A DNA stretch of 64,000 nucleotides from the NCBI RefSeq assembly GCF_017431965.1, contig NZ_JAFRKB010000033.1:1-64000 (forward strand), given 5' to 3'. A program made the position numbers and the translations under genes. Origin of the DNA: Methanobrevibacter sp. Its GTDB lineage: Archaea > Methanobacteriota > Methanobacteria > Methanobacteriales > Methanobacteriaceae. Positions 2,444 to 22,941 of the stretch are shown in pieces. The notes below the pieces were generated by a model. That model was not told the origin of the DNA. It saw only the letters and a program-made list of their open reading frames with translations, and made no database searches. Numbering within the stretch: the stretch's first letter is position 1; each line of letters starts with the position of its first letter.

Positions 2444-2791
2444 CTATTGGCCCATACCTTGCATAGCAGCCTGAATGGTAGCTTGCATTTCTTCGAGTTT
2501 TTTCATGACTCTTTCCTCTTGGCGAGCCATGGTTTGTTTTCTTAACTCAAGAGTTTCTAATTTATCTTCCATTTCAGCTAAAGCGTCAGCATATTCCACT
2601 TTAATGAGTAAAGTGCCTGCTTGTTTGAATACTTCGGTATTTTCATCAGTCTTTTTGAGTTCTTCTAATGCTTTTTCAGTTTCTTGAATTTGAACTTCAA
2701 CATTTTGAACCTGCATGGTTACAGCTTGAGCTTGTTGTTGTAATTGTTGAAACTGATTTAATTGATGTTGAATATTTTCAGGAATCTCCAT
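2444..2791 (-). CDS. pfdB: Prefoldin subunit beta
   Basis: Prefoldin is a hexameric ATP-independent chaperone with two alpha and four beta subunits that captures unfolded proteins in the cytosol and passes them to the thermosome. The 115-residue length fits the beta subunit. The sequence shows the N-terminal coiled-coil arm rich in glutamine ([20 protein letters not shown]), a central hairpin around [11 protein letters not shown], and a C-terminal heptad coiled coil ending in [14 protein letters not shown]. It lies between pcc1 and the DUF3194 gene, as is usual in euryarchaea. A GGTGAT site precedes the ATG at 2791. Confidence 0.95.
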
Positions 2792-2832
2792 AATATCACC
2801 TTATTTTTTATTTAAATTATTTTATATGAGTA

Positions 2833-3099
2833 TTAATTTATTAAATTATTTATTTCCAATGCCAATTTAATCCATTTGATTGCAGAGTTAACGGAAGCTC
2901 TAAATGAAGTGGAATCTTCCGCATCAATATTGATTAAAATATTTTTGCCATCCAGTTCAACGGTCATCGAAGACCGGTAATCAGGAGCGGTATCGAACTC
3001 TAAAATTATAGAATCATAAATTATTTCAGCATCTTTACTATTATCGAATTCAATAGTTATATCACTTTTGACAGATTCAAGAGGAGTTTCCTCAATCAT
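2833..3099 (-). CDS. KEOPS complex Pcc1-like subunit
   Basis: The 88-residue protein matches the Pcc1 subunit of KEOPS, the complex that makes the t6A37 modification of ANN-decoding tRNAs together with Kae1 and Bud32. The fold is small alpha/beta: strands around SDITIEFDN and SSMTVELDGKNILINID, and a C-terminal helix with SFRASVNSAIKWIKLA, the typical ending. Its start overlaps the end of the Brix-domain gene by 8 nt, which suggests translational coupling. The function is known from the family; Kae1-Bud32 is not in this window. Confidence 0.85.
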   Translation of the reverse strand: MIEETPLESVKSDITIEFDNSKDAEIIYDSIILEFDTAPDYRSSMTVELDGKNILINIDAEDSTSFRASVNSAIKWIKLALEINNLIN

Positions 3100-3577
3100 G
3101 TGAAACCTCTAAAACCTTTTTAACGTTAATTTGGAATTTGTTAACCTGTCCAAACTTATTGACAAAGTTAATTTTGGCCACCAAGTCCTCGCTGCTAGAG
3201 ATTAATATATAATTGTCATCAGCCTTATCGACAAGATCTATATCCAATATTTCGCTTAAAACATCAAGCTTTTCTACTTCACTAACTATTTTCAATCTGG
3301 ATGGAGCAATGTTAAGCTTTTCATTTTCGATTGCAGCCCCTATAAGAATTACAAGCAAAACTTCACCCCTATTGGAGTAAAACGTTATTTTGCTTGGATT
3401 TCCCTTAATCTCATTTACAATAGCCAAGTTAAATTCATCCAATTCCAATGCCTTCAGGAGAAGTTCACGCATGTTCATTTTTCCCCTATTCACTGAAGTG
3501 GAATCTGTGCAGCGTGCTAAATTCTTACAGAACTTCCTTGTTTTTTGAGAAGGCTTTCTAGAAGTTGAAATTAACAT
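3092..3577 (-). CDS. Brix domain rRNA-maturation protein (archaeal Imp4-like)
   Basis: The 161-residue protein begins MLISTSRKPSQKTRKFC, the classic start of archaeal Brix proteins, followed by LARCTDSTSVNRGKMNMREL and the central strand-helix pattern of the anticodon-binding-like Brix fold. Eukaryotic relatives (Imp4, Brx1, Rpf1) bind rRNA during ribosome assembly, so a role in rRNA processing is inferred. The gene lies 42 nt after rpoP and overlaps pcc1, the conserved order of the archaeal rpl37Ae-rpoP-Brix-pcc1 string. Confidence 0.85.
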   Translation of the reverse strand: MLISTSRKPSQKTRKFCKNLARCTDSTSVNRGKMNMRELLLKALELDEFNLAIVNEIKGNPSKITFYSNRGEVLLVILIGAAIENEKLNIAPSRLKIVSEVEKLDVLSEILDIDLVDKADDNYILISSSEDLVAKINFVNKFGQVNKFQINVKKVLEVSHD

Positions 3578-3619
3578 ATAAAATCAAAAATAGTAAAAAA
3601 ATAAAGTAAAGCAGATAAA

Positions 3620-3751
3620 TTATCTTGCTTTTATAACTCTAGTTGTTTCGGGAACATTTTTGAATAAAATCCTATATCTGCATTTAGGACATTTATTTTC
3701 CATGTAGCTCTTATGGTCTACTTCAGCTCCACAACGTGGACATCTATACAA
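3620..3751 (-). CDS. rpoP: DNA-directed RNA polymerase subunit P (Rpb12-like), TTG start
   Basis: This 43-residue subunit of archaeal RNA polymerase is a zinc-ribbon protein equivalent to eukaryotic Rpb12. The frame begins at TTG 3751, with GGAGG 8 nt upstream; no ATG is available before the first zinc motif. The protein reads YRCPRCGAEVDHKSY, then NKCPKCRYRILFKN, giving two CPxC pairs that bind one zinc, and ends ETTRVIKAR. It starts 3 nt after the rpl37A stop codon and lies before the Brix gene, its normal archaeal neighbourhood. The short length and TTG start make it easy to miss. Confidence 0.95.
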   Translation of the reverse strand: MYRCPRCGAEVDHKSYMENKCPKCRYRILFKNVPETTRVIKAR

Positions 3752-3754
3752 AGC

Positions 3755-4024
3755 CTATTCCTCCACTTTAATGTCTCTGATACTGCGTGCTGCAGATTTT
3801 GCCATTGGAGTTTGTGGAACGTAAGCTCCACCGGTGAATACTGCACCACATTTTCTGCATTTCCAAATTCCAGCAGCTTGTCTTTTTACATAAGGTCTAT
3901 CACATTTAGGACAAACATGATTCTTTTTCATGTTTTCTTCGATGATTTTAACAGATCTTTTTGCTTTTCTTCCGTATCTTGGACCAAACCTTCCTGTGAT
4001 ACCTACTTTTTTAGTTCTTGCCAT
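3755..4024 (-). CDS. rpl37A: 50S ribosomal protein L37Ae (eL43)
   Basis: The 89-residue protein is the large-subunit ribosomal protein L37Ae. It begins with the basic [20 protein letters not shown] and carries the zinc-ribbon pairs CPKC and CRKC around residues 38-60, then [14 protein letters not shown]. It heads the string leading to rpoP, the Brix gene, pcc1, pfdB and DUF3194, so the whole unit is probably driven by the promoter upstream of 4025. The start ATG at 4024 has a GGAGA site about 5 nt upstream. Its length is normal for the family. Confidence 0.97.
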
Positions 4025-16363: not shown

Positions 16364-16447
16364 TAATTTTTAATATATGCATATTAACTTAATATAATTA
16401 TTGTATGTACTATTGTTGCATCAATTATAATTTGGAGTTTGTATTTT

Positions 16448-17683
16448 ATGGTTTGTAAATGGGTTAATAAAGGTTTGGTTGTGAGGTTGTATCCTGATGA
16501 GGATATGATTTGTAAAATTAATCAAAATATTGGTAATGCACGTTTTACATGGAATCATTTATTAGCTGAATATCAAAAGACCTATATTTTATTTAAACAA
16601 CATGGATATACTCGTTTAAAGTGTAATATGACTACATTCAATGCTATGTTGACAATGCTTAAAAAGGAGCATGATTTTCTTTATTTAAGTGAATCCAGTA
16701 GTTTGCAACAGGTGTTTCGTAATCTTATTAATGCATATAAAAAATTCTTTAACAAAAATGCGGGTTACCCACGTTTTAAATCTAAACACCCCAAACAATC
16801 TTTCAGAATACAAAACATCAATAACAATATACGATTACAAGATAATATGCTCGTTTTACCTAAAATAGGGCCAGTATATTATCGAACCAGTAAAGAATAC
16901 AAACGATTACTAAATAGCAGCAATATCAAAATAAACAATGTCACTATTAAAAAATCAAACGGCAAATATTATGCAGTATTCAGCATCGAAACAACAGTTA
17001 CATACCTTGAAAAAACATTAAATGTAGTTGGAATTGATTTGGGATTAAAATCATTAGCAACTCTAAGTAACGGACTAAAGATAACCAATTTAGAACTAAC
17101 TTATGAAGAAAAAATGATAAAAAAATGCCAAAAAAGACTCTCAAGAAAAAAATATGGTAGCAAAAGATACCAGAAACTCCAAAGAACCTATTGGAAATGG
17201 CAAAATAAAAAAAATAATAAAATACGTGATGCATATCACAAACTAAGCCGTTATATAACGCAAAAATATGACATAATCTGCATGGAAAACCTATCCATCA
17301 AAGACATGCTTCAAGACACAAATCAAAGCGTCAAACTACATCGCATAGGATTGGCATCATTAGTGGAAAAGATCAAGTATAAATCCAACTGGTATGGTAA
17401 AAATTTCATACAAATCAACCGATGGTTTCCATCAAGCAAAAATTGCAACAACTGCGGATACTACAACAAAAACTTAAAACTAGAAGAAAGAGAATGGACT
17501 TGCCCAAAATGCAAAAAACATCATGACCGAGACATAAATGCTGCAAAAAACATACTTCATGAAGGATTTAGAATCCACATGGAGAATTTAATGAACCTCA
17601 GGGACTGGGGGGATAGCACGGTAATCCTAGAGGCAATAGCATCTACAGCCCGTGAAGTAAGAATCCTTAACATCCATATGTAA
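16448..17683 (+). CDS. tnpB: TnpB, RNA-guided endonuclease of IS605/IS1341 type
   Basis: TnpB proteins are RuvC-fold nucleases guided by an RNA from the element's right end; they are ancestors of Cas12. The frame is intact at 411 residues, close to the usual 350-420. The three RuvC acidic residues are present: Asp197 in VVGIDLGLKSL, Glu280 in ICMENLSIKDM and Asp362 in HHDRDINAAKN. The zinc finger has Cys333, Cys336, Cys352 and Cys355. I choose ATG 16448 since GGAG lies 10 nt upstream; a TTG at 16439 sits only 1 nt from it. With all catalytic residues intact it may be active. No tnpA is nearby. Confidence 0.93.
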   Translation: MVCKWVNKGLVVRLYPDEDMICKINQNIGNARFTWNHLLAEYQKTYILFKQHGYTRLKCNMTTFNAMLTMLKKEHDFLYLSESSSLQQVFRNLINAYKKFFNKNAGYPRFKSKHPKQSFRIQNINNNIRLQDNMLVLPKIGPVYYRTSKEYKRLLNSSNIKINNVTIKKSNGKYYAVFSIETTVTYLEKTLNVVGIDLGLKSLATLSNGLKITNLELTYEEKMIKKCQKRLSRKKYGSKRYQKLQRTYWKWQNKKNNKIRDAYHKLSRYITQKYDIICMENLSIKDMLQDTNQSVKLHRIGLASLVEKIKYKSNWYGKNFIQINRWFPSSKNCNNCGYYNKNLKLEEREWTCPKCKKHHDRDINAAKNILHEGFRIHMENLMNLRDWGDSTVILEAIASTAREVRILNIHM

Positions 17684-21108: not shown

Positions 21109-21139
21109 ATCAAAAAAAAATAGATTTGAGGAAAATCTA
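21109..21139 (-). terminator. Hairpin and T-tract terminator of the radical SAM operon
   Basis: On the minus strand TAGATTT, a 5-nt loop and AAATCTA form a perfect 7-bp stem at 21121-21139, followed by TTTTTTTTTGATTT. The stem begins at the stop codon of the 41-residue Cys4 gene, so that small gene is the last of the unit. Confidence 0.65.
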
Positions 21140-21262
21140 GTCTTCCTCTTTCTTTTCAAAATTCATGCACTGTTTGACATCCAGTAGCAGATGTTCATTA
21201 ATCTTGCAGACAATTTTATATTTGTCTCTAAATTCCATGTGTTTGCAGTCATCACAAATCAT
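21137..21262 (-). CDS. 41-residue Cys4 protein downstream of the radical SAM gene
   Basis: The frame starts at ATG 21262, 12 nt after the stop of the radical SAM gene, and ends at TAG 21137-21139. It encodes MICDDCKHMEFRDKYKIVC followed by 22 further residues ending QCMNFEKKEED. Four cysteines (3, 6, 19 and 32) could bind zinc or a cluster. A GTTGAT sequence lies 2 nt upstream of the ATG, a weak and close ribosome site. A terminator follows directly, so the frame lies fully inside the transcript. The function is unknown; it may be a second peptide substrate or a small accessory zinc protein. Confidence 0.6.
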   Translation of the reverse strand: MICDDCKHMEFRDKYKIVCKINEHLLLDVKQCMNFEKKEED

Positions 21263-21274
21263 ATTATCAACACA

Positions 21275-22402
21275 TTAAGGTTTCATTGCCAAATCCATTA
21301 TACTGAATGGTTCTCCTTCTTTTCTCTCAGCAGGCACACCCATTCCAAAAGCTGATTTGGCGAATTCCTTATTCATCCTTTTTGAAACTTCTCCAAAAAT
21401 TATCTTATATGCATCACATTGCGGATCAACTGCTTGAGGGGTTTTATGTGCAACAATTGCATTATAAGGGCATCCCCCTTCACAATATTTCACATATCTA
21501 CATTTTTTACAGTTTTCATCAACGTAATCCCTAAATTCCTGAAGCTTTGCCCATGCATCGGATGCTTTTAAATCATCAAAACTTGGATTATCAGAAACGT
21601 TTCCCAATACATATTCAGGCATTCCCACAAATCTGTAACATGGATATATTGAACCGTCCGCTCCAACAGCCAATGTAGTTCCAATGCAATCTGCAAATGT
21701 ACAAAGGGTTCCTCTACGCCTTAACGCACTTTTACAAATATGGTCCAAATCCATTATCGAAAACTTATCCAAATCATAAAGGTATTTATCAAGCCAGTCA
21801 ACCAAGAGTTTTCCATGCTCTTCCTGGTTGAGTGCCCATGGATCTGCATTGTCTCCCCTAAGAGATGGAAGGGCCGCATGAATCTTGAGGCTCATCTTTT
21901 CTCCTTTAAAGAATTCATACAATTCATCTGAGAAATCTTTTGAATATTCAGTGACTGTTAAAACAAAGTTAATAATCAATCCCTTGCTTTTGGCAAGCTC
22001 ATATTTTGACATTGTTTTATCAAAGTAACCGTCTCCCCTTTGATAATCATTAATTTCCTTTGGCCCGTCAATACTTGTACTTACAACAACATTGTATTTG
22101 ACAAATAAGTCAATGAGTTCTTCTGTTAAAAGCCAAATGTTGCTTTGAAGGGAAAATCCTTCGAAATTATCAAGTTTCGATAGTTTTTCTAATGAATATT
22201 CATAAAAGTCATAACCCGCTAAAAGCGGCTCGCCACCGTGGAAAGTAAAATGGACTTTATCATCCCTAAAATCATCTAACCAAGCAATAATTTGGTCAAT
22301 AATTTCTGTATCCATCATCTCTTTTTTGTTTTCGGAACCCCAACAGTATTTACAGTTTGATGGACAATTGAGTGTGGGAATAATCATTACATGAAATGTC
22401 AT
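21275..22402 (-). CDS. Radical SAM/SPASM protein, putative peptide-modifying enzyme
   Basis: The 375-residue protein has the radical SAM motif CPSNCKYC at Cys13, Cys17 and Cys20, the GGEP motif in FTFHGGEPLLAG, and a SPASM domain with CTFADCIG, DGSIYPCYRF, GNVSDN and CKKCRYVKYCEGGCPYNA for auxiliary clusters. The layout is that of anaerobic sulfatase-maturase-like enzymes that alter peptides. I recall a methanogen subgroup (TIGR04083, Mhun_1560 family) that lies beside a small Cys-rich peptide, and this gene fits it. The ATG lies 1 nt after the stop of the 69-residue Cys-rich peptide gene, so the two are tightly coupled. No sulfatase is present nearby. The modification is unknown. Confidence 0.88.
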   Translation of the reverse strand: MTFHVMIIPTLNCPSNCKYCWGSENKKEMMDTEIIDQIIAWLDDFRDDKVHFTFHGGEPLLAGYDFYEYSLEKLSKLDNFEGFSLQSNIWLLTEELIDLFVKYNVVVSTSIDGPKEINDYQRGDGYFDKTMSKYELAKSKGLIINFVLTVTEYSKDFSDELYEFFKGEKMSLKIHAALPSLRGDNADPWALNQEEHGKLLVDWLDKYLYDLDKFSIMDLDHICKSALRRRGTLCTFADCIGTTLAVGADGSIYPCYRFVGMPEYVLGNVSDNPSFDDLKASDAWAKLQEFRDYVDENCKKCRYVKYCEGGCPYNAIVAHKTPQAVDPQCDAYKIIFGEVSKRMNKEFAKSAFGMGVPAERKEGEPFSIMDLAMKP

Positions 22403-22403
22403 T

Positions 22404-22613
22404 TTAACCGTGTATCTTATTTAGTTCATTTAATAATTTTTTCTTCTCGTCTTCTTCCATATCTTCATTGACAAAGAATATGTAACCGCATTCTTCACAT
22501 TTAACCGCATTCATTTCTGCGTGTGCGCGGTGATTGTCTAATAATCTTCTGTGAGCAATTTTATCTTTTGAACCACATTTTGGACATGGTGCTAATAATT
22601 CTTCAAGTTTCAT
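22404..22613 (-). CDS. Cys-rich peptide, likely partner or substrate of the radical SAM enzyme
   Basis: The 69-residue protein begins MKLEELLAPCPKCGSKDKI, continues through a basic His-rich part (AHRRLLDNHRAHAEMNAVK) to CEECGYIFFVNE, and ends in a charged helix. The two pairs CPKC and CEEC look like a zinc ribbon. I recall a Cys-rich methanogen peptide family (TIGR04165) found beside the radical SAM enzyme, and I think that this is a member. A strong AGGTGA site precedes the ATG. It is the first gene of the unit, so it would be made in excess over the enzyme, as precursor peptides usually are. A simple zinc-ribbon role is the alternative. Confidence 0.75.
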   Translation of the reverse strand: MKLEELLAPCPKCGSKDKIAHRRLLDNHRAHAEMNAVKCEECGYIFFVNEDMEEDEKKKLLNELNKIHG

Positions 22614-22779
22614 ATTTTCACCTATAATTAAAGTTAGTTTTCAAAATATATTAATGTTATCAGTGATGGAAAAGTTTAAATAAGATGGTTAAATGACTGC
22701 AATTTTTCAAAATAACTTAAACGATCTTTAAATATCAAATAAGACAATATTAAATATTAATTTATAAAATAAAGTGATT

Positions 22780-22941
22780 ATGATGCCATATGACCTGTAT
22801 GATTATTTCTTAAAAAAGAGAAACAATGAAAATTTTACCGAAACAACAAACATCGTAAGGCAAAAATTTTGACGGGAAACATTTGATGTAGTTGAATCCC
22901 AAAAATGGGAAGAGATAACCGATAAAGTCAAAAGAAATTAA
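22780..22941 (+). pseudogene. Small gene interrupted by one in-frame TGA
   Basis: An ATG at 22780 (or 22783), preceded by GTGATT, opens a frame that reads MMPYDLYDYFLKKRNNENF and on to RQKF, then TGA at 22870-22872, then RETFDVVESQKWEEITDKV and ends KRN at TAA 22939-22941. Without the TGA it would encode 53 residues. Codon use on both sides is alike, so the frame looks like one gene with a single nonsense change (for example from TGG or CGA). No selenocysteine system is expected in this lineage. The family is unknown. It converges with the Fe-S aldo/keto reductase gene and overlaps its last codon. Confidence 0.5.

Follow-up and report, generated by a model that had tools for sequence, protein, structure and literature searches.

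The radical SAM/SPASM enzymes of family TIGR04083 are probably the makers of the didehydroaspartate residue of McrA, an assignment drawn from gene content and gene neighbourhoods to which we give a probability of about 0.72; that the family is tied to MCR in some way is very probable. One member lies in the window, by which we mean the whole 64,000-nucleotide stretch of Methanobrevibacter DNA that was analysed, where it is flanked by genes for two small cysteine-containing proteins. A fuller reading, in which an McrA aspartate-desaturating SPASM enzyme works with TIGR04165 as a required adaptor in Methanobacteriota and with an undescribed Cys4 protein as a partner in part of Methanobrevibacter, is tentative and falls somewhat short of even odds.

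Almost all methane of biological origin comes from MCR, the enzyme targeted by feed additives that are meant to cut emissions from cattle. Its didehydroaspartate was reportedly described in 2016. The enzyme that forms this residue in McrA was stated to be unknown in two reviews, of 2020 (PMC7581889) and 2021 (PMC8070964), and the publications from 2023 onwards in which the residue is mentioned assign no enzyme to it, in a search whose reach mostly excluded subscription journals and preprints. Because no enzyme is assigned in the literature found, the role of didehydroaspartate has been closed to genetic study, and one named gene together with a tractable host, M. acetivorans, would make the question testable. 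If true, the assignment would also help in producing MCR with its proper modifications in foreign hosts and would give a new meaning to a family annotated as peptide-modifying. Since the window comes from a gut-type Methanobrevibacter whose relatives are mostly rumen and gut organisms, the MCR of rumen methanogens is concerned as well.

The modification status of McrA by species was taken from Table 1 of PMC9081873 and from PMC12413448. In all eight checkable cases, which come from few and related species, an intact TIGR04083 gene is found where, and only where, didehydroaspartate has been published. Modified McrA and an intact gene coincide in M. marburgensis (G144; McrA identical to 3POT), M. 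barkeri (G566; identical to 1E6Y over 543 residues) and M. acetivorans (G562; identical to 8GF5 over 545 residues), as well as in ANME-2c (G475; 23 differences in 555 residues from 9QM5) and ANME-2d (G487; 1225 bits to 9QQT), these last two being represented by close relatives of the crystallised strains. The M. acetivorans enzyme gene occupies positions 4,090,849-4,091,973 on the plus strand of a record of 5,751,492 bases. Conversely, McrA is unmodified and the gene absent in Ethanoperedens (G454; McrA identical to 7B1S) and in ANME-1, likewise represented by a close relative (G240; McrA close to 3SQG). In the eighth case, M. wolfeii (G151), the McrA is identical to 5A8K, the M. wolfeii structure listed without didehydroaspartate in PMC9081873, and the TIGR04083 gene is interrupted. 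The unmodified M. kandleri, Methermicoccus, Methanotorris and Methanothermococcus fall outside this set; M. jannaschii, used as a stand-in for the unmodified Methanococcales, scores below the TIGR04083 cut-off. The unmodified McrA of Methermicoccus shengliensis (7NKG) was compared with 80 genomes, among which the species was not found, and none of its full-length matches exceeded 71% identity; genome G629, an early candidate for this species, proved to be a different one. About 70 Methanosarcinia genomes that carry mcrA (G154, G164, G359 and their relatives), among them entire groups of Methanosarcinaceae, gave no match to TIGR04083, and their McrA is predicted to be without didehydroaspartate. 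Methanococcoides burtonii, Methanohalophilus, Methanosalsum and Methanothermus fervidus are examples of species that lack the gene.

The M. wolfeii gene carries a TAG at codon 337, corresponding to Tyr332 of the window enzyme, a position occupied by tyrosine in 105 of 106 aligned rows with M. wolfeii as the sole exception. The nonsense codon leaves all cluster cysteines in place and a tail of 3 residues after the last of them, compared with at least 42 in every other copy; in the predicted structure of the window enzyme a helix (residues 329-351) covers the part that is lost. The truncated enzyme might keep its activity. That TIGR04083 might be the didehydroaspartate enzyme, and that M. wolfeii might be one of the two interrupted Methanothermobacter copies, was put forward before the genomes were identified; both lesions had already been seen, so that the forecast concerned the species and not its lesion. 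About 3% of the TIGR04083 copies in Methanobacteriota are interrupted anyway, so the M. wolfeii coincidence taken alone amounts to odds near 1 in 30. The second lesion is a single-base frameshift, close to a stretch of G, that splits the gene at 2709-3835 of locus L158, from a genome that we take to be M. thermautotrophicus Delta H. It may be a real loss or an old sequencing error and was kept out of the eight-case count; if real, it predicts an unmodified McrA.

Genomic linkage provides a second line of evidence. Both mcrA (TIGR03256) and TIGR04083 were sought in 238 genomes of the class to which Methanolobus vulcani (G152) belongs. The two genes lie within about 5 kb of each other in 18 of about 90 Methanosarcinia genomes with both located, where 0.4 would be expected, a figure that was counted by hand from coordinates, spans a handful of independent lineages and is judged by a binomial that ignores relatedness. 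The argument is therefore carried by several separate lineages, not by the binomial value. The two genes adjoin in Methanolobus-like genomes; in G152 and G354 the mcr operon has TIGR04083 after it in the same orientation; mcrA adjoins the enzyme gene in a relative of ANME-2c (G478), where the ANME-2c spacing is 180 bp, and is directly adjacent in ANME-2a-like genomes as well; in two ANME-2d relatives (G487, G489) the distance is about 5 kb. Outside Methanosarcinia, a Methanoregula-like genome, presumably close to Methanoregula boonei, has one gene between mcrA and TIGR04083, and in G414 the two are 0.1 kb apart. In the Methanobacteriota loci that were read, the window included, no MCR genes were seen near TIGR04083. 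A 718-aa protein is encoded between mcrA and TIGR04083 in ANME-2d relatives (L152:5337-7493 and L178:2742-4898); for the L152 copy NCBIfam gave no match at E 1e-60, and the protein may belong to MCR maturation.

The linkage extends to mmp10, the gene of the B12-dependent McrA arginine methylase (TIGR03278). The order is mcrA, mmp10, TIGR04083 in G596 and G364, three ANME-2a-like loci have mmp10 directly next to TIGR04083, and in G615 mcrA and TIGR04083 are convergent with mmp10 on the far side. In a Methanothrix genome (G602) mmp10 and TIGR04083 are paired on one strand with about 23 nt between them. Four of the mmp10 copies beside TIGR04083 score 585-628 bits against TIGR03278. Two mmp10 matches each were seen in G602, G605, G608, G610, G611 and others. 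Mmp10 resembles the proposed TIGR04083 function in being a radical SAM enzyme that modifies an active-site residue of McrA and in having its gene beside mcrA in many Methanosarcinia, but it is a methylase of another family, whereas TIGR04083 is a SPASM enzyme and a proposed desaturase. The TIGR03278 search also found mmp10 in Ethanoperedens and M. jannaschii; MCR-modifying enzymes thus do not all share the TIGR04083 pattern. Similarly, YcaO-TfuA and McmA make the thioglycine and the S-methylcysteine of McrA, neighbouring modifications in the same loop as the proposed target, and their genes likewise occur near mcr (PMC11796369, PMC7058361), although their chemistry and families differ from those of TIGR04083.

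Taken alone, proximity to mcrA and mmp10 demonstrates just a tie to MCR, and the enzyme could act at a different residue, on a different subunit or on a protein that assembles MCR. We consider this unlikely, since no other modification column in Table 1 of PMC9081873 fits the TIGR04083 distribution: M. wolfeii and Ethanoperedens both have S-methylcysteine, Methanosarcina lacks methylglutamine, and methylhistidine is universal.

Within the window, the enzyme gene is the middle one of three, all on the minus strand. The operon comprises the following features:

22618..22623, minus strand: Shine-Dalgarno AGGTGA of the TIGR04165 gene, read from the sequence, 4 nt before the ATG
22404..22613, minus strand: TIGR04165 small protein, 69 aa, with two CxxCG knuckles; predicted zinc ribbon and C-terminal helix
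21275..22402, minus strand: TIGR04083 radical SAM/SPASM enzyme, 375 aa; proposed McrA aspartate desaturase (didehydroaspartate maturase)
21137..21262, minus strand: Cys4 protein, 41 aa, CxxC-x12-C-x12-C; adjoins the enzyme gene; probable lineage-specific accessory gene in part of Methanobrevibacter
21128..21148, minus strand: terminator-like hairpin, a consensus match only, of which the region has 2 where 0.8 are expected

The initial annotation, made from the sequence alone, had placed the three genes at these positions, with a good Shine-Dalgarno site before the small protein and the enzyme gene starting 1 nt past its stop codon, and the coordinates bear it out on each point. It had also put the hairpin after the Cys4 gene, which begins 12 nt past the enzyme stop; the hairpin in fact overlaps the final codons of that ORF (21148-21128). 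The 69-residue protein had been called Cys-rich, a generous term for 4 cysteines arranged as two CxxCG knuckles.

The same annotation named a methanogen-specific TIGR04083/TIGR04165 pair and read the small protein as a peptide modified by the enzyme, in accordance with the NCBIfam names, peptide-modifying enzyme and Cys-rich peptide. The window proteins do belong to the pair by the curated cut-offs, with 591 bits for the enzyme (cut-off 300) and 86.6 bits for the small protein (cut-off 60). Among 152 Methanobacteriota genomes, TIGR04083 is over cut-off in 132 and TIGR04165 in 136; a comparison of the two lists showed that the discordant genomes are explained by fragmentary genes, unfinished assemblies and contig ends, so that the two families co-occur almost perfectly. 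Both are kept in genus g12 (G128, presumably Methanosphaera stadtmanae), where the two genes are far apart, and neither is over cut-off in Methanothermus fervidus (G001). The situation is different in Halobacteriota, the phylum of Methanosarcina and of Methanolobus vulcani (locus L091), where TIGR04083 is over cut-off in 89 of 295 genomes and TIGR04165 in 0 of 295. The small protein is consequently a regional partner of a wider, MCR-linked enzyme family, and its distribution rules it out as the universal substrate. The annotation had named a peptide widespread without its enzyme as an outcome that would speak against it; what was found is the reverse, an enzyme widespread without the peptide in methanogenic Halobacteriota and often near mcrA or mmp10 there.

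The idea that TIGR04165 is a precursor, at whose cysteines or neighbouring residues TIGR04083 makes a radical link, draws on the 1-nt gap between the adjacent genes, on the Methanobacteriota co-occurrence even where the genes are unlinked, as in Methanosphaera, on their joint absence over cut-off from Methanothermus fervidus, and on the fact that SPASM enzymes often act on peptides. The Halobacteriota counts oppose it, and so does the small protein itself, which has no leader/core division. In the family alignment C10, P11, C13, G14, D17, K18, C39, C42 and G43 are invariant, so both cysteine pairs are fixed in knuckles of the form CPxCG-x2-DK and CxxCG. The window protein scores with zinc-ribbon families; among Lar-type ribbons it reached 32.3 bits with PF14354, over the gathering score of 28.6, and 28.1 bits with TIGR03655, under the cut-off of 39.6. 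Its structural model, of moderate confidence (pLDDT 78), has a three-stranded sheet and a terminal helix, with weak fold matches to TFIIS/RPB9-type ribbons. Judged from the model and the profile scores, TIGR04165 looks like a compact, folded zinc ribbon. We therefore regard the precursor explanation as improbable, a little more so than action elsewhere on MCR, and a peptide-modification system in general is not upheld, although the intracellular role foreseen for the system appears right. Within Methanobacteriota, a direct enzyme-substrate relationship between TIGR04083 and TIGR04165 is possible.

Under the McrA aspartate assignment, the almost perfect co-occurrence in Methanobacteriota calls for a helper hypothesis, and we infer that TIGR04165 is a zinc-ribbon adaptor specific to this phylum, which would present McrA to TIGR04083 or contact the enzyme. 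Methanothermobacter has a further TIGR04165-like protein (L157:9311-9532, L158:8618-8839, L159:8872-9093), which is longer and carries an insert and additional cysteines; its gene lies about 4.5-5 kb from the enzyme gene on the opposite strand.

The window enzyme scores above the gathering thresholds of PF04055 and PF13186. Its radical SAM motif CxxxCxxC (C13, C17, C20) and its SPASM cysteines (C234, C239, C255, C298, C301, C307, C311 and C329) are invariant in the 106 aligned rows. Both by sequence and by fold (TM about 0.8), the nearest solved structure is the anaerobic sulfatase maturase anSME (PDB 4K36-4K39), and the second-best NCBIfam model is the corresponding TIGR03942. A role as sulfatase maturase or general protein-modifying SPASM enzyme unrelated to MCR, to which these matches might point, is nevertheless very improbable, given 173.5 bits against a TIGR03942 cut-off of 349.45. 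The family clears the TIGR04083 threshold, and in several lineages its genes go with the mcr locus.

The anSME enzymes oxidise a side chain of another enzyme by two electrons. Desaturation between C-alpha and C-beta is likewise a two-electron oxidation, which makes this chemistry plausible for TIGR04083 by analogy. The two share the SPASM domain and the oxidation of an active-site residue of another enzyme, but the anSME target is a cysteine or serine of sulfatases, whereas the proposed TIGR04083 target is an aspartate of McrA. In the suggested mechanism, this anSME-like enzyme would act on McrA by using a 5'-deoxyadenosyl radical to abstract a hydrogen at C-beta (or C-alpha) of one aspartate. 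This residue belongs to the motif G-(Y/F)-D-L-Q-D-Q-C and is Asp470 in M. acetivorans and Asp450 in the numbering of a second species.

The 41-aa Cys4 ORF had been put forward as a real and undescribed gene, and both parts of that claim hold. Among 25 distinct copies from the fetched loci, pN was below pS in 300 of 300 orthologue pairs (mean pS about 0.71, mean pN about 0.11, median dN/dS about 0.08), which demonstrates a real gene under strong purifying selection. The protein has no NCBIfam match and no credible Pfam match, so family scans suggest no function. A profile search found it in 27 of 152 Methanobacteriota genomes, all from the genus of the window, and it adjoins TIGR04083 wherever the positions of the two genes were compared. 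It is probably a lineage-specific accessory of the enzyme in part of Methanobrevibacter, where it would join TIGR04165 as a further helper.

Two other ORFs were observed on the plus strand of the window. A small ORF remnant (MMPYDLYDYFLKKRNNENFTE...) with an in-frame TGA lies upstream of the operon at 22781-22940, and a 414-aa ORF at 16439-17683 resembles, by eye, a TnpB-type transposon protein.
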